From IMG/VR virus record IMGVR_UViG_3300027754_000392, positions 1 through 25,628 of that record: a stretch of 25,628 nt of DNA; one strand, written 5' to 3'. The stretch comes from a virus. Shown piece after piece: positions 1-23,482 of this stretch; the first letter of the stretch is position 1, and each line of letters opens with the position of its first letter. Made by a program: the position numbers and the translations under genes. The notes below the pieces were generated by a model. That model was not told where the DNA came from, made no database searches, and saw only the letters and a list, made by a program, of their open reading frames with translations.

Positions 1-46
1 CCAACTGCTCCCTGTTGAACTCTAATTTTGACACTTGGTTTTGCAT
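1..46 (-). CDS. N-terminus of a gene cut by the left edge; possibly RecT-like
   Basis: An ATG at 46-44 opens a frame that stays open to the window edge, giving MQNQVSKLEFNREQL. It follows the DnaA-like gene in the same direction. The stretch LEFNREQ resembles the opening of phage RecT-type single-strand annealing proteins, which often begin with a similar F-x-R-E-Q element. With only 15 residues visible this is an inference from resemblance and gene order, not an identification. It could be any other early protein. Confidence 0.4.
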   Translation of the reverse strand, partial: MQNQVSKLEFNREQL

Positions 47-61
47 AGTTTAATGTTTATT

Positions 62-70
62 TGTGTAAAA
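62..70 (-). promoter_or_regulatory. Second DnaA-box-like site (one mismatch)
   Basis: The minus strand reads TTTTACACA, which differs from TTATNCACA only at the third base. It has the same orientation as the perfect box at 83-91, 21 bases away, close to two helical turns, so two proteins could bind the same DNA face. Weak on its own. Confidence 0.35.
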
Positions 71-82
71 ATATAAAATAGT

Positions 83-91
83 TGTGAATAA
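83..91 (-). promoter_or_regulatory. Perfect DnaA box
   Basis: The minus strand reads TTATTCACA, an exact match to the DnaA-box consensus TTATNCACA. It lies in the 51-base gap between the stop of the DnaA domain IV gene (98) and the start of the gene at the left edge (46). This placement suits autoregulation, or a binding site for host DnaA or for the phage DnaA-like protein. A single 9-mer can arise by chance, so the support comes from its position and its partner site at 62-70. Confidence 0.5.
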
Positions 92-97
92 ACAAAA

Positions 98-364
98 TTA
101 AATTAAGATATTTAAGTTGAAAACATCTTTTTTAATCGTGTCATCGTAGGGATGGGTTATGTAATTATTTACCATTTTTACTCCGTGTAATACTGTTGAA
201 TGGTCTCTATCCCCCAATATTTCGCCTATTTGCTTACAGGTTAGCCTTGTATTTTGCCTCATTAGATAAATAGCAACGTGCCTTGCCAATACGTTTTTTC
301 TTGACCTGTTTTTACCTTTGATGGCTTTTAAAGAAACATCGTAATACTCGCTTACTGTTTCCAT
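98..364 (-). CDS. Stand-alone DnaA domain IV-like DNA-binding protein
   Basis: An 88-aa protein made of little more than the C-terminal DNA-binding domain of DnaA. The start of bacterial domain IV is mirrored by METVSEYYDVSLKAIKGKNR, and the DnaA signature appears as GDRDHSTVLHG at residues 51-61, where DnaA has GGRDHSTVLHA. The R-x-x-V-L-A-R-H and L-T-x-x-x-I-G-x-x-L helices are also present. There is no AAA+ ATPase domain, so it should bind DnaA boxes without opening DNA. The ATG at 364 was chosen because it sits 5 bases after the previous gene and begins exactly at the domain. Longer forms starting at 400 or 442 overlap that gene and add unrelated residues. A perfect DnaA box lies just downstream. 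Likely roles (inferred) are regulating early transcription or replication, or competing with host DnaA. Confidence 0.85.
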   Translation of the reverse strand: METVSEYYDVSLKAIKGKNRSRKNVLARHVAIYLMRQNTRLTCKQIGEILGDRDHSTVLHGVKMVNNYITHPYDDTIKKDVFNLNILI

Positions 365-368
365 AATA

Positions 369-551
369 CTAACTCCCTTGTCCGTTTGATTCTCTTTCGC
401 CATCAGCTTTTGTTTGTAGCTGGGCATTGTCCAATAACTCATTTAATTCAATTTTTAATTTTCTAATTTGGTTTCTTAACATCTCATTCTCCATTTCTAG
501 GATTTGATTTAATCGCATAAAATCCCATTTTGACTTATCTATGTAACTCAT
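369..551 (-). CDS. Small coiled-coil protein, unknown function
   Basis: A 60-aa protein not recognised as a known family. Residues 14-42 are rich in Leu, Glu, Asn and Lys with heptad-like spacing (ILEMENEMLRNQIRKLKIEL), suggesting a short coiled coil and oligomerisation. The tail is polar and probably disordered. It lies 5 bases ahead of the DnaA-like gene and just after the 99-aa gene, so it belongs to the early operon. It could be an accessory partner for a neighbouring DNA-binding protein, but nothing in the sequence shows that. Confidence 0.65.
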   Translation of the reverse strand: MSYIDKSKWDFMRLNQILEMENEMLRNQIRKLKIELNELLDNAQLQTKADGERESNGQGS

Positions 552-1914: not shown

Positions 1915-2034
1915 TTGTAACCAAATTGTTAAATAGTTAGGGTATAATATGTTAATTGTTGTAACATTATTAGGGTAGATATGTTACTGATTTATAAGGG
2001 ATTGTAACAAGATTTGTTAATTGTTAGTAGCTAT
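1915..2034. repeat. Three degenerate direct repeats with TTGTAAC core
   Basis: TTGTAAC occurs at 1915, 1959 and 2002, spaced 44 and 43 bases apart. Sub-elements are shared: GTTAATTGTT at 1951 and 2016; TTAGGGTA followed by ATATGTTA near 1938 and 1970; and TTGTAAC, AATT, GTTAA in the first and third units. The mosaic sharing looks like decayed tandem duplication or iteron-like binding sites. Confidence 0.4.
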
Positions 2035-2063
2035 ACTACGCAAATGTTCACATTTTTAAACCT

Positions 2064-2079
2064 TTCACGGATTCGTGAA
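2064..2079. promoter_or_regulatory. Perfect palindrome, operator-like
   Basis: TTCACGGATTCGTGAA has two 6-base arms around GATT, extended on the right by C. A further GTTCAC half-site at 2046-2051 matches the outer arm, so three half-sites lie within 35 bases. It falls just inside the predicted transcript of the promoter at 2101-2132. It suits a dimeric repressor site or an RNA hairpin in the leader. Confidence 0.45.
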
Positions 2080-2100
2080 CATTATAAACTCTTGTTGTAC

Positions 2101-2132
2101 CAAAATTATAAAGTCAAGCTATAACTTGACAA
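2101..2132 (-). promoter_or_regulatory. Candidate promoter with a palindrome in its spacer
   Basis: The minus strand has a -7 box TAATTTTG (2108-2101) and TTG at 2132-2130, 21 bases upstream. The spacer is almost filled by GTCAAG-CTATAA-CTTGAC (2113-2130), a perfect inverted repeat overlapping the -33 element. A repressor bound there would block polymerase, the usual logic of phage early control. The candidate binder is unknown; the downstream ribbon-helix-helix protein is one possibility. Confidence 0.45.
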
Positions 2133-2180
2133 ATGAGCCAAATACAAGTCAATATCGGCTCAATGTGACTTATATGGAAC

Positions 2181-2204
2181 AAATGCACATCAAAAAGTGC
2201 ATTT
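2181..2204. repeat. 8-bp inverted repeat hairpin
   Basis: AAATGCAC (2181-2188) pairs with GTGCATTT (2197-2204) around ATCAAAAA. The low-GC stem is not followed by a long U-run in either direction, so a protein site or DNA cruciform is as likely as a terminator. Confidence 0.4.
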
Positions 2205-2241
2205 TATGACACATTACGCATATTTACGAATACATACGGAT

Positions 2242-2274
2242 AAAAAAAAGGAGGCATCGTAGAAACGAACCTCC
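2242..2274 (-). terminator. Second (distal) terminator of the late transcript
   Basis: On the minus strand GGAGG (2274-2270) pairs with CCTCC (2254-2250), with an inner CGT/ACG pairing, followed directly by eight U residues (2249-2242). This is a classical intrinsic terminator for leftward transcription, 40-odd bases beyond the first one. Confidence 0.75.
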
Positions 2275-2316
2275 GTAAAACCATTTGTCTATTAAACTAT
2301 GCTCACAAACTTACAT

Positions 2317-2344
2317 AAAAAAACTCGGCTTTTTAGACCGAGTT
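2317..2344 (-). terminator. First terminator of the late transcript
   Basis: On the minus strand AACTCGG (2344-2338) pairs with CCGAGTT (2328-2322), with a 9-base loop and a following U-run (about 2323-2317). It lies 28 bases after the stop of the metallopeptidase-like gene and closes the long late operon. Confidence 0.75.
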
Positions 2345-2372
2345 AAACCAACATATGAGAAAACCAAACAAC

Positions 2373-2642
2373 CTACTTTGACCCATCCTGTAAAGGCATA
2401 TCATTACTGTCATCAATTTTACGATAACCTTCTTTCCATAAGATGTTAGTCAAAGTTACACTTTTGCGTATAATCGCCTTTTCATCATCCGTTGGGTTCA
2501 ACAGGTGTAATACTTCGTGTAACAATATTTCAAGGTGTTTCTTGCCCTTTAATCTTGTATCTATATATACAATACCATCACTCTCTGCAATGCCGTGTGC
2601 TTGTTCTCTGCCCAATTTCTTGTATATGATTTTAATTTTCAT
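2373..2642 (-). CDS. Minimal HExxH zinc metallopeptidase-like protein
   Basis: An 89-aa protein with HEVLH at residues 42-46 in a helix after two predicted strands (KIKIIYKKLG and GIVYIDTRL), the arrangement of the zincin core. The helix ends LLNPTDDE; an acidic residue at 52-54 could be a third zinc ligand, but no downstream His/Glu ligand is obvious. It resembles the compact metallopeptidase domains of ImmA/IrrE- or SprT-like proteins, but is shorter than either. Substrate unknown. It overlaps the previous small gene by 11 bases and is the last gene before the tandem terminators. It may be an active protease or a degenerate domain used for binding. Confidence 0.55.
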   Translation of the reverse strand: MKIKIIYKKLGREQAHGIAESDGIVYIDTRLKGKKHLEILLHEVLHLLNPTDDEKAIIRKSVTLTNILWKEGYRKIDDSNDMPLQDGSK

Positions 2643-2826
2643 TCTTTAAAACTGCTTCATCAGGTCGTTCAACTTCTTTTATTATTACTTTATTGCCACC
2701 TCTTATTTTGGATAGCATACGTTTAACATCCTCCTCCATCTTGTAATATTCTGATAGTTTCTTTACTAGATAACTTTCTTGTTCGGATAATGTCATTTTG
2801 TTGAATGCTTTAGGAAGTTTAATCAT
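2632..2826 (-). CDS. Small helical charged protein, 64 aa
   Basis: Unrecognised 64-aa protein, strongly charged and probably helical throughout the first 45 residues (MTLSEQESYLVKKLSEYYKM). It begins 8 bases after the exonuclease gene and overlaps the metallopeptidase-like gene, suggesting translational coupling with one of them. No membrane segment or metal motif. Confidence 0.6.
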   Translation of the reverse strand: MIKLPKAFNKMTLSEQESYLVKKLSEYYKMEEDVKRMLSKIRGGNKVIIKEVERPDEAVLKNEN

Positions 2827-2833
2827 CTCTATA

Positions 2834-3583
2834 TTATTTGTCAGTTTTAGAATGGTATTTATTACAAGTATTGCATTTGTATTGTATTCTAGTCAATCCT
2901 GTTGCGGTTACAACTTTATTATTTCTTATTAATTCATCACTTCCACATTCAGGGCAAGTTCCTCTATCCTGTCCAAATACAACTCCGTAATGTGTTTTGG
3001 GTTCTATGTGATTGCTTAAAGCCTTGTAAACTTGTTCTAATAATACCACATCTTTTTTGCAATATTTAATCATTTTCTCCATTGCAACTTTGTCCTTTTT
3101 TAAAAGAATATCTTTCCAAAGACTGTATTCAGTTTTAATCTTTTGACCTAAACCTAAATAATCGGCTATGTAATTAAGTCTATTTGAGTTAAATTTGAAC
3201 TTTGACCTTGCTACTTTTAAAGTATCTATTGTAACGTATTTAGGAAACATATCTATCTTGTGAAATAGGCATCGTGTACGAATCCAAGCTAAATCAAATT
3301 TGTCTCCATTATGACCTATCATTTCGTTAGAAAGATTTGCAACCTCAATAAACTTTTGTAGCATTGTTTTGTCGTTCTGCTTTGCATCCCATTGTAAGGA
3401 ATAAACCTCCTTTTCATCTTCCCATTTGTAACAAATACAAATGATTGCACGTTCTTGTATAATGTTTGAATAATCAATATTCTTTTTGTAACCAGCTTCC
3501 CAAAACAATCCTATGTTTGGCGAAGTTTCGATGTCGAAAAATAGCCTTCTCCGCTTTGTTTTAAGCGTGTTTGGAGTTGTCAT
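2834..3583 (-). CDS. DEDDy-type 3'-5' exonuclease with C-terminal zinc ribbon
   Basis: A 249-aa protein of the RNase H-like exonuclease fold. Motif ExoI is FFDIETSP (D17, E19), ExoII is HNGDKFDLAWI (D94 or D97) and ExoIII is YCKKDVVLLEQV with Y174 and D178, the Y-x3-D spacing of the DEDDy class. It most resembles the predicted YprB-type exonucleases used by phages. Residues 210-240 add a zinc ribbon (C210-x2-C213 and C237-x2-C240), likely for nucleic-acid binding. Expected activity is metal-dependent 3'-5' digestion of DNA or RNA; the substrate cannot be told from sequence. It lies directly after the lysozyme, an odd place for a DNA-metabolism gene, but in the same operon. Confidence 0.85.
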   Translation of the reverse strand: MTTPNTLKTKRRRLFFDIETSPNIGLFWEAGYKKNIDYSNIIQERAIICICYKWEDEKEVYSLQWDAKQNDKTMLQKFIEVANLSNEMIGHNGDKFDLAWIRTRCLFHKIDMFPKYVTIDTLKVARSKFKFNSNRLNYIADYLGLGQKIKTEYSLWKDILLKKDKVAMEKMIKYCKKDVVLLEQVYKALSNHIEPKTHYGVVFGQDRGTCPECGSDELIRNNKVVTATGLTRIQYKCNTCNKYHSKTDK

Positions 3584-5858: not shown

Positions 5859-8800
5859 TTATTTATTTAATAATTGTTTAAGTTCATTAATTTGCTCTTG
5901 TTGCTCTTGCACCGCTTTAATTAACATAGGTACAAATACGGAATATTTAACTCCTTTTATTTTTACGTTCTCTCCTAAATTGGTTGATTCTTCAATCATA
6001 TTAGGGAAGATTTCCTCTAACTCTTGTGATATAACACCTAATTGCTTATTTGATTCCCCTTTAAGATTGTAGTTTCTAACCTTTACTTTCATTAAATCAG
6101 CTAATTTAGGAGTTGCATCTATAATGTTTTCTTTTAATCTAGCATCAGAAATTGCACCATATGAGTTATTGGTATTTTGAATATTACCATTAGAGAATAT
6201 TTTTAAAGCAACTGTTGATGTAGATTGTTGTCCGTAAAAGAAATAAGAACCTGTGCCACCTGTTGCGGTCATAGAAGCCACTACGCAAGACTTGGTATAA
6301 GTTGCACCTGTGTTATTAAACACGAACATATCTACGTTAGAATGCACAACGGCTGCTATAGTGCTTGTAGATACGATACTTCCGTTAACTTGTAATTTGT
6401 TTACACCATCATCAGTAGTAGTTCCTATTAATACATTACCTCCACCTTTAATAATCATTCTTGTTGTTCCTGATAAGTCAGAATCAAAAAATAAATCTTT
6501 ATCATTAGCTGAATTATACCATCTAATTCTTGATTGATTATCTTGAACTTCAAAATCAAAATTGTTTGGAGTTGTACCTGTTCTTTGTAAAGAAAGTTTA
6601 GTATTTGTATTATTTACTATTGAAATAATATTACCGCCTGTTTGAACACTACTAGAGAATGTAGCTGCTCCGTTTGAGGCTAACGTTAAACAATCTATTG
6701 AATAATTGTTAAAAGCTAACCCATTGCCACTTGATGTGTTATATATTTGCCAATCAGGTAATCTAAAGCCAAAGCTTGTTCCTCTACCACCTGTTGAAGT
6801 AAAAATTGTTGCTGAAACATTAGCAGAGAATGTAGCTGCTCCTGAATTTTGAATCCAAAAAGGTAATTCTGCTGTTGTTACATTATAAATACCCCAACCA
6901 GGACCAGGTCCATAATTACCATTAAATAAATAAAATGTATTTGCAGTAGCTACACTTTCCCATCTCATTCCATTTTGTGAACTTCCACCTGTTAATGATA
7001 TTTTATTTGCAGATGAATTTCCTATTTGTAAATAACCATTCCCACTATCAGTAGTAGTTCCTATTAATACATTGCCTCCTGTTAAAACAATAGGCTCACT
7101 ATTAGCTGATGCTATTTCAAAGTATGCATTTTCTGCTCTTAATCTATGTTGAGAACCACTTGCTACACCATATCTATTTATATACAATGTTTTTACTGCA
7201 TTTACAGAACCTTGAATTTCCATTACTGCTCCTGTTGCAGTTGTGGTTGTTGCCGTTACACTACTAGAGAATGTAGCTGCATTGTTAAATGAAAATGAAC
7301 TTGCAGCAAAATCCATTTGATTATAAGTTGCCCCACTTCTATTATATGCTTGAATTAAAGTTTTATTACTTAAATATCCTGTTCCAATTTCTAAACCTTC
7401 AGCACCACCATTTGAAACAACAAGTTTATACAATGGATTTGTTGTTCCTATACCTACATTGCCTCCATAAAAGCAAAGCATATTATCATATATTGCTGTG
7501 CTATTATCTACATCATAAGTAAATTTAATTCCAGCAGTTGTCCAATTTGTGCCTGTGCTTTGTCTATATGCAGTAATCCCTAAACCAGCGTGATTTCCAC
7601 CAGCGTCAAAACCTAAATTGGCTATTTTGGCAGTATTACCAGTTGTTCCACCAAGATTTGCACCATTAACATTAAAAATTGAATTAAAAGCAGAACCGGG
7701 AGTATTTACTGCTGTTCCAACACTTACACTACTAGAGAATATAGCTGCTCCTGTTGCTCTAAATGTTCCTGTAACATCTAATTGATATGCTGCTGTTGAA
7801 CTACCAATACCTACATTATTTCCGTATGGATTTAATATTAATGGGGTTGAACTCCAAGATTGCATCCAAGCATAACCACCTGCGGTATAATAACCAAGTG
7901 ATAATTTACCACCTGTTGTTGCAGGTGTAGAAGTTCCATTAATATCAAAATATTGATTTGAAGTTACTATCCCACTAAAGCTTGCATTTGTTCCACTCAA
8001 TGCACCATATAAAGTAGTATTACCACCATTTGCAACCTTTAACCCTACGGAACCATTTGGTGCTATATTTATATCATATCCACCTCCAGTTCCTAATGTT
8101 AAAGTATTTTGATAAATACCTCCAATTGCACTACCTCCAACTCTAATAAACCCAAGATTAATATTTGCATCATTTCCTAATCTAAAATCCGAACCACCAG
8201 TTGATGAAGCATTATAAACTCTTGCAAAATCAAAACTAGCAGAATTAAAATTTAAATATAAATCACCAGTTAATGGAAAACTTACTCCAGCACTTAACGG
8301 CAAATAACCACTTAAAGCACTACCATAGTTAGGTATGTTTAAAGTGTTTGAACTAAACGTTGCTGCACCACTTGTTCCTGTTGTGGTTAAGGTTATTGTT
8401 CCCTGCTTTGAATTGAATGTACTCCAATCCGCACTTGATAATGCCCCACGATTTGCTGCACTTGCAGTTGGTACATTTAAAGTAATTACAGGAGTTGTTG
8501 TACTTGTTGCAACTGTTGAACTTAAATCCGTTCCGCTTGTTCCTATTGTTAAAGCAGCTACGCTTGTAACTGTTCCACCACTTGAAGGTGAAGTATTTGT
8601 TATAGTAAAGTTTGGATAAGTTCCTGTTACACTAATTCCTGTACTTGCAGTTAAAGCAACTGTTTGGTCAGGAGCAGAGTTTGTTATAACACCTGTTGTA
8701 TTGTTATAACTTATTCCTACACCTGCACTTAAAGAACCTAATGTAATATAGTTTGCTCCGTTAGTAATTTGCGTATTGTTTGTTGGAATAGTAATAATAC

Positions 8801-10265
8801 CTGTTGTGCTATTATATGCTCCTGAACCTGCTGCAAAACTTAATGATGTTAAAGTAATGTAATTAGCACCATTGGTTATTTGTGTGTTATTAGTAGGTAT
8901 CGTTATAACCCCTGTTGTAGAGTTATAAGCACCACTACCTGCAACAAAACTTAACGCTGCTCTTGCTCTTGTATCGGTATAATAAAGTCTTGTTCCTTCC
9001 GTTACTAAAGTCGTTGTATAATCTCCACTTGTAGCTACCACCGCACCTGTACGACCAAAAACCGAAGTAACAGGATAAGAAATGTCGCTTGTTAAGGCAA
9101 CTGTTCCTGAAGCATTAGGGAAAGTATAAGAACGATTTGCGGTATTAGCAGAAGTAACAAATTTGTTTAAATAAAGATTTCCATTTTGCCATCCTAAATC
9201 CCCATTAACATCTGCAAAAATCATACTTTCATTAGCACTACCTGTTGGAGATGCCGTTTGATGTTTCAATCCTAAATGACCTGCTCCAGCCGTTCCTTTA
9301 ACGTGTAAGGCTTGTGCGTTTAAAACGTGTGTACCTAAATCTACATCCGTAGTTGCACCTGTGTAGGGAACATATCCTGATAAGGCTGAACCATAGTTAG
9401 GAATATTAAAAACCCCTGTTGTATTATTATAAGTCGCTACTCCACTCGTTCCTGTTGTTGTTAAACTTAATGCCAATCTTGCTTTTGCATCAGTATATGA
9501 ACTTATTTGAACACTTGCATCAGGGAAAATTAATCCTTGAGCATTAACCTCCATTACTGAACCTGCTCCTGTACTATTTGTTAAGGTTAATTTATTGTAT
9601 TCTAATACACCGAATATTGTTCCAGCTGCATTCTCAACTCCAAATAAAGATGGAGACATTTCACTATTGTATGTTCCATTATTTGCAATAAATGAATGAG
9701 TACCTATATTCACATTTGCAGTTGCTCCAGTGTAAGGAACAAAACCTGTTAAATCAGGAAATGTTGTTAAGTTTCCTGCTCCGTTTACATATTGACCTGA
9801 AGTACCTGCAAAAGCAAAAGCTAAAGTTCCTGCCGTTGTAATTGGAGAACCTGTGATTCCGATTGCACCTCCTGTAATAGAAGCACCAACCGAAGTAACT
9901 GTTCCATTTTGTCCGTTAGATTTCTGCCAAGTTCCACTTCCGTATAACACCCAATCCCCTACCGCAAAAGTAATAGGAAAAGCACCAAAGTTCACAGTTC
10001 CAGAAACATTACAAATGTACATATCCCCAGCATCGCCCACACCATTCGTTAAGGTCGGAGTATTCGTAGCAGCATTCCAAGTACCTAAATAAGTTACTAC
10101 CGATGAAGGTAATTGAGATACAGGCACTTTACCACCACTATCAAGCGTTGCTACACCATTGGCAGCACCTAATGGAACTGAACCTACTACACCACTTGTG
10201 CCTGTTAAAACCCCATTTAAATTCCTAACTTTTGCACCTGAACTTATTACGATTTGATTACTCAT
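5859..10265 (-). CDS. Tail fibre with C-terminal S74 intramolecular chaperone
   Basis: A 1468-aa receptor-binding fibre. Residues 1-200 form a Gly/Val/Thr-rich shaft and anchor region (VPLGAANGVATLDSGGKVPV is typical of such N-termini). Residues 200-1000 are beta-rich repeats such as GVGISYNNTTGVITNS and YVPYTGATTDVDLG, and later repeats alternate VGIGTT/VLIGTTT and ATFSSSV modules. The end is a peptidase S74 (endosialidase-type) domain starting at SDARLKENI (S1373, D1374), which folds the trimer and then cleaves itself off before this Ser, and finishing in a coiled coil (AVQEQQEQINELKQLLNK). Two tandem 37-residue repeats lie at 438-511. It follows the second tube-like protein by 14 bases. 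The target on the host surface is unknown. Confidence 0.9.
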   Translation of the reverse strand: MSNQIVISSGAKVRNLNGVLTGTSGVVGSVPLGAANGVATLDSGGKVPVSQLPSSVVTYLGTWNAATNTPTLTNGVGDAGDMYICNVSGTVNFGAFPITFAVGDWVLYGSGTWQKSNGQNGTVTSVGASITGGAIGITGSPITTAGTLAFAFAGTSGQYVNGAGNLTTFPDLTGFVPYTGATANVNIGTHSFIANNGTYNSEMSPSLFGVENAAGTIFGVLEYNKLTLTNSTGAGSVMEVNAQGLIFPDASVQISSYTDAKARLALSLTTTGTSGVATYNNTTGVFNIPNYGSALSGYVPYTGATTDVDLGTHVLNAQALHVKGTAGAGHLGLKHQTASPTGSANESMIFADVNGDLGWQNGNLYLNKFVTSANTANRSYTFPNASGTVALTSDISYPVTSVFGRTGAVVATSGDYTTTLVTEGTRLYYTDTRARAALSFVAGSGAYNSTTGVITIPTNNTQITNGANYITLTSLSFAAGSGAYNSTTGIITIPTNNTQITNGANYITLGSLSAGVGISYNNTTGVITNSAPDQTVALTASTGISVTGTYPNFTITNTSPSSGGTVTSVAALTIGTSGTDLSSTVATSTTTPVITLNVPTASAANRGALSSADWSTFNSKQGTITLTTTGTSGAATFSSNTLNIPNYGSALSGYLPLSAGVSFPLTGDLYLNFNSASFDFARVYNASSTGGSDFRLGNDANINLGFIRVGGSAIGGIYQNTLTLGTGGGYDINIAPNGSVGLKVANGGNTTLYGALSGTNASFSGIVTSNQYFDINGTSTPATTGGKLSLGYYTAGGYAWMQSWSSTPLILNPYGNNVGIGSSTAAYQLDVTGTFRATGAAIFSSSVSVGTAVNTPGSAFNSIFNVNGANLGGTTGNTAKIANLGFDAGGNHAGLGITAYRQSTGTNWTTAGIKFTYDVDNSTAIYDNMLCFYGGNVGIGTTNPLYKLVVSNGGAEGLEIGTGYLSNKTLIQAYNRSGATYNQMDFAASSFSFNNAATFSSSVTATTTTATGAVMEIQGSVNAVKTLYINRYGVASGSQHRLRAENAYFEIASANSEPIVLTGGNVLIGTTTDSGNGYLQIGNSSANKISLTGGSSQNGMRWESVATANTFYLFNGNYGPGPGWGIYNVTTAELPFWIQNSGAATFSANVSATIFTSTGGRGTSFGFRLPDWQIYNTSSGNGLAFNNYSIDCLTLASNGAATFSSSVQTGGNIISIVNNTNTKLSLQRTGTTPNNFDFEVQDNQSRIRWYNSANDKDLFFDSDLSGTTRMIIKGGGNVLIGTTTDDGVNKLQVNGSIVSTSTIAAVVHSNVDMFVFNNTGATYTKSCVVASMTATGGTGSYFFYGQQSTSTVALKIFSNGNIQNTNNSYGAISDARLKENIIDATPKLADLMKVKVRNYNLKGESNKQLGVISQELEEIFPNMIEESTNLGENVKIKGVKYSVFVPMLIKAVQEQQEQINELKQLLNK
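6646..7749 (-). repeat. Dispersed ATFSSSV-module DNA repeats in the fibre gene
   Basis: CTACTAGAGAATGTAGCTGC (plus-strand view, encoding AATFSSS) recurs nearly unchanged at about 6649, 7261 and, with one base changed, 7729; a shorter version is at 6822. A second element, ATCAGTAGTAGTTCC plus the next 18 bases (coding VLIGTTTD), occurs near 6409 and 7049. Repeats this similar at DNA level suggest recent duplication or module shuffling. Confidence 0.6.
8733..8954 (-). repeat. Two tandem 37-codon repeats, synonymously diverged
   Basis: Copies at 8954-8844 and 8843-8733 encode residues 438-474 and 475-511 of the fibre. They differ at only 3 of 37 residues (V/A, V/I, T/G), yet 23 of the 34 shared residues use different codons. 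The shared protein motif includes GAYNSTTG, TIPTNNTQITNGANYITL. Confidence 0.8.
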
Positions 10266-10279
10266 CTTATTATTTTTAT

Positions 10280-10984
10280 CTATTGAAATAATGCTCTAAC
10301 ATACTCACCACTTCCCAAAACTCTGCTAAATGTTAAAATTCCTGTTGTACTTGCCCATTTAACTTGTTCATCAACTGGAGTTCCTGTTGTTAATATATCC
10401 TGAACATCCACACCACCTCTTGATACATAAAGACAAGATTTCCCAATCATATCAGTATATGTAATAGTTGTTTCTCCACCTGCTGCCGTATATCCTTTAG
10501 TATATATTACACCACCTGCAACAATAACTACACCACTTGGATTGATTGTCGTTCCTGTAGTTCCATAAGCACCTGAACCTTGTAAAGACACGGAATAAGT
10601 TGCTATGTCTTTATATGGTGCGTTTAATTGTAAACTTGTTAAATTGCAATTTCCACTAATTATGACTAAACCATCATCTCCATTATCCACTACAAACTTT
10701 ACTAAAATTGTAGTTCGGTTTTGTTGTTGTTGTAATAAGAAAAGATAACCATAGCCATCTAAAGTAATTAAACCATCACAAGTAACTATCCACGTTGCTA
10801 TATCATTCTTAAATTCACGATACCAAGCCGATGTTTGACTTGTAACCTCTTTTTGGTCAACATTTACACTAAATGTGCAATTTGTAGAACAAGAAAATGC
10901 AATATCCCTTCCTGTTGGATAAGTTTCGGAAGCTGGCTCGTGATAATAGAGCATTATATTTTTACCAATTACTTTGTCTGCCAT
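10280..10984 (-). CDS. Second tail-tube-like protein with C-terminal extra domain
   Basis: A 234-aa protein. Residues 1-140 follow the pattern of siphovirus tail-tube proteins: a GRD...AFSCST strand, EVTSQTSAWYREFKND (compare DATSKCG in the tube gene at 15148), TWIVTCDGLI, a Leu/Gln-rich helix, then ISGNCNLTSLQ and a closing strand YSVSLQGSG. Residues 145-234 form an additional Gly/Thr/Val-rich beta domain. It lies after the distal tail gene and before the fibre, not next to the first tube gene. It may form a tube-like ring at the tail tip or an adaptor to the fibre. Tube homology is by pattern, not alignment score. Confidence 0.6.
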   Translation of the reverse strand: MADKVIGKNIMLYYHEPASETYPTGRDIAFSCSTNCTFSVNVDQKEVTSQTSAWYREFKNDIATWIVTCDGLITLDGYGYLFLLQQQQNRTTILVKFVVDNGDDGLVIISGNCNLTSLQLNAPYKDIATYSVSLQGSGAYGTTGTTINPSGVVIVAGGVIYTKGYTAAGGETTITYTDMIGKSCLYVSRGGVDVQDILTTGTPVDEQVKWASTTGILTFSRVLGSGEYVRALFQ

Positions 10985-23053: not shown

Positions 23054-23482
23054 TTACAAAGTTACACCACAATTAGGACAAGTCTTACATCCTTTAGTAT
23101 TGTCCTTTGGTTCTTCAATATCATTATTTGCAAATGCTGGTATATCTAAACCCCAATTATCTAGGTCTTGTATTTCCCATTCGTTAGCAAGAAGGTCAAA
23201 ATCCCAATCTCCTGTGCTAACATTATCACGAACAATAAATTGTTTCTTTTGTTGTTCGGTTAAGTTATTTGCGTGAATGACAGGAACTTCGGTAAGACCA
23301 GCTTCAATACAAGCACGAAATCTTTGATTGCCACCTAGAATCATATTTGTTTCATCAATGACTATTGGGCGTAGGTTAAGCATTTCAGGGAACTCTTGAA
23401 TAGACTTAACTAATAACTTGAATTTAGCATCACGGCAAATTCTAGGATTGTTTGGGTTTGATTTGATTTGACTTACTAGCAT
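23054..23482 (-). CDS. ParB-like nuclease-fold protein with Cys-rich end
   Basis: A 142-aa protein consisting of the ParB N-terminal domain: SNPNNPRICRD, a middle region LRPIVIDETNMILGGNQRFRACIEAGL with the ParB nucleotide-binding GGNQRFRA (50-57), and EVPVIHANNLTEQQKKQFIVRDN. There is no DNA-binding C-terminal domain as in chromosomal ParB. It ends CKTCPNCG (C132, C135, C138): a cysteine knuckle of three Cys, possibly a truncated zinc ribbon. Phages often carry such proteins next to terminase genes. It starts at a TAATG overlap with the zinc-ribbon gene. Role could be DNA binding, modification or CTP-dependent loading; unknown. Confidence 0.75.
   Translation of the reverse strand: MLVSQIKSNPNNPRICRDAKFKLLVKSIQEFPEMLNLRPIVIDETNMILGGNQRFRACIEAGLTEVPVIHANNLTEQQKKQFIVRDNVSTGDWDFDLLANEWEIQDLDNWGLDIPAFANNDIEEPKDNTKGCKTCPNCGVTL

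Follow-up and report, generated by a model that had tools for sequence, protein, structure and literature searches.

The DNA analysed here, which we call the window, is an entire linear IMG/VR record of 25,628 bases. It carries a free-standing gene for a DnaA domain IV protein (dnaA_C) directly upstream of recT, and a DnaA-box-type 9-mer that is conserved in place among relatives lies between the two genes in a promoter-like context. On balance, we favour the reading that the dnaA_C protein is an operator-binding regulator that holds down the recT operon through this single 9-bp site; its binding, the regulation and the sign of that regulation are what we infer. The left end of the window holds the gene, the sites in the gap and recT, all on the minus strand, and the terminase that the window encodes is nearest to those of Parabacteroides and other Bacteroidota phages (~40% identity).

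A free-standing DnaA domain IV protein

The dnaA_C open frame spans 98–442(−), with 114 codons from an ATG at 442 and a stop codon at 98–100. Its sole match in a Pfam search is Bac_DnaA_C (PF08299), with 83.7 bits (E 9.4e-24) against a gathering cut-off of 31.5 bits, and all 19 relatives searched also score above that cut-off. Because PF08299 is the only family matched, the initiator domains of DnaA (the AAA+ domain III and domain I) are missing from the frame. The sequence-only reading had described the protein as essentially DnaA domain IV, which is what it is. That reading had also proposed an 88-residue gene starting at 364, a start that is possible but less supported than the ATG at 403: an ATG or TTG occupies the latter column in clade W, to which the window belongs, and in the related clades R and S. 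The gene therefore most likely spans 98–403(−) and encodes 101 residues (MAKENQ...).

A structure prediction, which had been suggested for comparison with DnaA domain IV, supports the domain assignment. By sequence, the nearest proteins of solved structure are domain IV of Escherichia coli DnaA (1J1V; E 1.6e-10, 32% identity) and of Mycobacterium tuberculosis DnaA (3PVP; 28% identity). The predicted model (mean pLDDT 89) matches 1J1V with an rmsd of 1.0 over 92 residues (Z 18.9) and 3PVP with Z 18.4. Unlike either protein, the phage protein is free-standing and lacks domains I–III. The helix-turn-helix (HTH) fold and the DNA-contact residues are retained in the predicted structure and the alignment, including the equivalents of E. 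coli R399, D433, H434 and T436.

The recT operon

Only the first 15 codons of recT fall within the window (1–46, minus strand), where the gene runs off the record. The translation of positions 2–46, MQNQVSKLEFNREQL, is the RecT N-terminus of the relatives, and the full gene in one of them, L002, matches PF03837 (E 1.5e-28), so that an earlier guess at the identity of this gene proved correct. In the operon below, recT is followed by a small ORF, a Lin1244/replication-initiation-like protein and others. The small ORF looks SSB-like by eye, and a Pfam search with it gave no match. In the close relative L004, the recT block is separated from the replication gene by an ORF (1960–3084) that by eye resembles a DNA cytosine methyltransferase; it is missing at this position in L002 and L003.

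Several other ORFs deserve mention. The window encodes a stand-alone DNA polymerase exonuclease-like protein at 2834–3583 (phrog_403, E 2.4e-57; RNase_H_2), with a possible but weak C-terminal zinc ribbon, and a 1468-residue repetitive tail-fibre-like ORF at 5859–10265, which contains repeated motifs and whose end resembles an intramolecular chaperone by eye. The relative L024 has a 385-residue protein (9419–10576) that combines a ParB_N-like part (a weak match) with an N6/N4 DNA methylase; a 142-residue ORF at 23054–23482 of the window resembles its N-terminal part by eye and stops before any methylase.

DnaA-box-like sites between dnaA_C and recT

The gap between the dnaA_C stop and recT is 51–52 nt long in the window. 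The proposed operator, TTATTCACA at 83–91(−), lies 6 nt after the stop and matches the DnaA-box consensus TTATNCACA with no mismatch. A second box-like 9-mer, TTTTACACA at 62–70(−), has one mismatch. As the sequence-only reading had it, the two share one orientation and start 21 nt apart; both are 3′ of dnaA_C. Over both strands of the window the exact consensus occurs once, against 2.3 occurrences expected. The 9-mer by itself is therefore not rare, and the improbable thing is its position: about 0.005 matches are expected per gap at window composition, with P ~0.02 for a gap of like composition (the composition being counted with the box itself).

One-mismatch boxes number 34 in the window against 48 expected, no excess over chance, and little can therefore be read into the second box. 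It also fails to show the conservation of the first: at the corresponding position clade R has AATTTCACA or variants containing TACA or AAA, and clade S has no box. A role for it as a co-operator 21 bp away was rejected because of this variation in R and absence in S. The 9-mer at 62–70 overlaps a candidate promoter element (below) and probably has no function as a box.

Conservation of the site among relatives

Searching with the window protein gave no more than three loci, all very close, and a search with RecT found 37. We surveyed relatives through an alignment of four RecT sequences, which confirmed 566 loci; the best 80 of 566 were used together with 18 from the single-RecT search (98 loci; the two sets share contigs). 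Among these, 65 have a DnaA_C frame immediately 5′ of recT and a readable gap: three in clade W, 21 in R, 38 in S and three others. In most of the remaining loci, recT is farther away or the upstream sequence is too short. A further search with an S protein, from which the best 80 of 94 loci were used, found TTATTAACA five bases past the dnaA_C stop in all 80 and recT as the next gene in 79; the other record, L204, ends too early.

Pooling these loci (the best 80 of 566 plus 18, and the best 80 of 94) gave 98 context-distinct sequences, meaning sequences that differ over ~550 nt, among which copies of one contig cut differently may persist. Among the matches listed, 95 of the 98 with dnaA_C directly 5′ of recT have TTATN[C/A]ACA at the same position. 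These comprise three clade W sequences with TTATTCACA, 18 clade R sequences with TTATTAACA (12) or TTATCAACA (6), and 74 clade S sequences, all with TTATTAACA. The three outliers (L099, L127 and L128) have TTATTAACG (one) or TTATTATCA (two) in place of the 9-mer. In one additional locus, L013, the W box is present and the upstream DNA is too short to show dnaA_C. Since W, R and S are homologous, they do not represent three independent origins of the arrangement.

A scan of related phages for boxes at the same place had been proposed earlier, with their absence from close relatives that keep the gene counting against the idea. The 9-mer is conserved in place across W, R and S. The strict consensus TTATNCACA is confined to the window clade and is indeed absent from the larger clades R and S, but the site itself is not: TTATYAACA, one mismatch from the consensus, occupies its position there.

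Three gut matches deposited as ‘Bacteriophage sp.’ (L009, L010 and L011; MT837670, MT838540 and MT836067) were excluded as stand-alone relatives, having full-length DnaA reading frames. These frames lie amid DnaA boxes, and the three records are therefore probably bacterial DNA; in L011, TTATCAACA occurs among TTATCCACA boxes around the full-length gene. Alignment A1 did include them, as did the HMM, which was used for detection only. A search of genome contigs for a Bacteroidota prophage found none.

Promoter-like context of the proposed operator

The Bacteroidota promoter consensus, as given in an excerpt of PMC6847099, consists of TTTG at −33 and TANNTTTG at −7; the −7 element is likewise described in an excerpt of PMC9723704. 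In the window gap, TTTG (93–96, minus strand) is followed by the box and then by the candidate −7-like element TATATTTT (68–75, minus strand), which lies 16 bases past the box start and has five of the six fixed bases. An alternative, TATTTTTA (66–73, minus strand), lies 18 bases past the box start, and the S gaps have TAATTTTA at 19 bases. W and the majority of S gaps combine TTTG with a −7 match of five of the six fixed bases; in most R gaps the −7 match is weaker. Some S gaps have lost TTTG and have TTAG or TTTT there.

We propose that the domain IV protein, devoid of initiator domains, would bind one DnaA-box-type operator just past its own stop codon. This operator would sit inside the promoter that drives the following operon, flanked by the −33-like and −7-like elements. 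The bound protein would cover the region between these elements, and for that reason the simplest mechanism is a block to RNA polymerase. The recombination/replication operon (recT, the Lin1244-type replication protein and others) would thus be kept down until the right time, the sign and timing of this control being what we infer. The regulator is probably a repressor; activation is less likely, and origin marking is less likely than regulation.

The gap as a whole is conserved, with divergences of 2.0% in W (one pair), 2.8% in R and 5.9% in S, compared with 21.6, 17.3 and 25.0% at fourfold sites of recT. Conservation thus extends beyond the box, and promoter or leader constraint contributes. 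The nine bases themselves are invariant across 20 unique S gaps, which also contain a five-base hypervariable stretch 14–18 bases past the box start; in clade R they vary only at position 5, which is N in the consensus. In view of the constraint on the entire gap, it could be argued that the gap is kept merely as a promoter or leader for recT and that its likeness to a DnaA box is coincidental, all the more so as TTATTAACA is AT-rich and 1.5–5% of gaps of like composition contain a 9-mer that fits. We consider such a coincidence unlikely. The 9-mer is retained in S gaps where the adjoining 5′ TTTG has been lost. The window clade has the exact consensus next to a gene for the matching protein. 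Finally, among the matches listed, the 9-mer is missing from all 21 recT loci without an upstream DnaA_C, on both strands over the 120 nt nearest the start. Among the controls, six loci have a RecT with 59–65% identity over 176–207 residues, many of the others being G+C-rich and from other hosts. In one control, L135, a DnaA_C gene is present at another place and no box adjoins it.

Other candidate elements in the gap were rejected. An RNA hairpin or attenuator is not indicated in the window, whose gap folds no better than shuffled versions (z −0.63), and a TTTGG/CYAAA inverted repeat in S is, by eye, broken without compensation in the TTAG and TTTT variants. Inverted repeats in R and S are centred differently by eye; they are therefore not the conserved feature, and a shared palindromic operator was discarded.

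Distribution of the 9-mer and the question of an origin

The 18 S loci examined (99 kb) contain 29 copies of the 9-mer against 18.7 expected, and 18 of the 29 are the shared site. The rest are scattered, except that five loci share a copy on the opposite strand at +667/+668, a distance that places it inside recT. In ten longer S records the 9-mer occurs 2–7 times per record, unclustered. No recurrent TTATN[C/A]ACA lies upstream of the dnaA_C gene in the 18 S loci (up to 3 kb), and autoregulation through an upstream box was dropped as a candidate. The sequence-only reading had listed control of the protein's own gene among its options; that option is weakened because the box is 3′ of dnaA_C.

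Another of its options was that the box marks an origin. The box and AT-rich gap might form a phage replication origin at which DnaA_C, or host DnaA with it, assembles and helps to recruit the host helicase. The neighbourhood suits this idea, holding recT, the SSB-like ORF (by eye, without a Pfam match) and the Lin1244/replication-initiation protein. No DnaB helicase gene was found in any of the 12 long relatives searched, records that may be fragments, and PHROG 27829 and 30669, which consist of a single DnaA_C domain, are annotated as replication initiation proteins. A DnaA-type origin is, however, recognized by a cluster of boxes, and here each locus has a single shared site, the others being scattered and mostly non-recurrent. 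The protein also lacks the AAA+ and DnaB-binding domains, and the spacing of the site is promoter-like. We therefore regard an origin as somewhat unlikely.

Predicted protein–site recognition

An excerpt of PMC5742627 describes how E. coli DnaA reads its box: Arg399 enters the minor groove at the 5′ TTA, and the helix comprising residues 434–451 reads TnCACA in the major groove. The phage residue aligned with Arg399, R46, is one of five residues that are invariant in 18 relatives; T83 is another. TTAT is likewise constant in all sites of the three clades and in the outliers, with changes confined to positions 5, 6, 7 and 9. The recognition segment is GDRDHSTV, GNRDHSTV or GDRDHTTV in W, NRDHTTV in R, NRDRTTV in S and GIDRSTA in the outlier L127; the residue aligned with H434 is thus Arg in clade S. 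Sites in both R and S deviate from the DnaA consensus at C6. The recognition segment and the 3′ half of the site both vary, which is the pattern expected if protein and site change together, with few independent changes to support it.

Compared with that of E. coli DnaA, the HTH turn in R and S lacks one residue, and its covariation with position 6 likewise reflects few lineage changes. The M. tuberculosis DnaA box retains C6. M. tuberculosis DnaA has the shorter turn as well, so the turn alone cannot explain the change from C6 to A. From these comparisons, the phage protein is the likely reader of the 9-mer. More tentatively, and with appreciable doubt, a DnaA domain IV may, in one phage lineage, have been cut loose from the initiator to become a dedicated repressor of the recombination/replication operon. 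Its operator would descend from a DnaA box and would have changed specificity with the protein: the TTAT half, read by the conserved Arg, would be frozen, and the recognition-helix half would shift from TTCACA to TYAACA, accompanied by the loss of one residue from the HTH turn and by a His-to-Arg substitution in one clade.

Host DnaA could in principle read the site instead, tying recT to the level of host DnaA with the phage protein as a competitor. The W box is the canonical consensus, and E. coli DnaA does regulate transcription (PMC5742627, in part). Yet the sites of R and S have moved away from the consensus at C6, a drift shared with the DnaA_C proteins of these clades, and the site tracks the presence of the phage gene; we find this arrangement quite improbable. 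Still less credible, to the point of being very improbable, is a protein aimed mainly at the host that occupies the DnaA boxes of oriC and blocks initiation. Surplus domain IV is able to interfere with initiation, and the contact residues for the DnaA box are retained. Such a function would nevertheless leave the conserved phage site unexplained, and the Arg at the H434 position in S might weaken binding to host boxes.

A coiled-coil-like segment beside DnaA_C

Just upstream of dnaA_C is a 60-residue coiled-coil-like ORF (369–551, minus strand) that overlaps the 98–442 frame in another reading frame. This out-of-frame overlap is found in both W and R. Clade S encodes the counterpart and DnaA_C in a single frame, as a protein of ~145 residues (e.g. 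L118:3482–3919), which differs in this respect from domain IV of the E. coli and M. tuberculosis proteins. Comparison of the two coil profiles aligned 28 columns (probability 90, E 1.6e-6). Between coiled coils, a match of this kind argues weakly for common descent; the same position and order support descent. The in-frame fusion in S, with a counterpart in W and R, suggests that the coil and DnaA_C work together, perhaps as a dimer.

Relation to known systems

Stand-alone phage DnaA_C proteins are already known. Olleya phage Harreka_1 has a single-domain DnaA_C like that of the window, and Pelagibacter phages Greip, HTVC100P and HTVC204P encode a single DnaA_C domain a few genes from an ssDNA-annealing protein; unlike in the window, no box-type site adjoins the gene in any of these phages. 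E. coli DnaA itself regulates transcription by binding DnaA boxes at promoters, as in dnaA autoregulation and at uvrB (excerpts of PMC5742627 and PMC6015884), whereas the putative regulator of the window would be a dedicated phage protein that has a single operator and lacks an ATP-binding domain. Domain IV is also reused in some HuH transposases, which carry a C-terminal Bac_DnaA_C; there, in contrast to the window, it is fused to a nuclease and the flanking sites are unlike DnaA boxes (PMC6006769, in part). The available part of PMC11242194 mentions DnaA only as a reference gene. In the literature within our reach, which covers little of the subscription literature, we found no account of a stand-alone DnaA_C acting as an operator-binding regulator with a conserved operator in a recT promoter. 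What appears to be new is the conserved predicted operator beside such a protein, with a mechanism that is testable.

These findings suggest that a group of viruses of Bacteroidota has turned a replication part into a dedicated gene switch. If so, the DNA-reading part of a near-universal bacterial initiator would have been reused as a simple regulator, and clades W, R and S and the outliers would form a natural series of proteins and sites with shifted DnaA-box specificity, from whose pairs the recognition rules of domain IV would be directly testable. For this lineage of a recurrent phage family, the automatic label ‘replication initiation protein’ would then give way to a more specific function.
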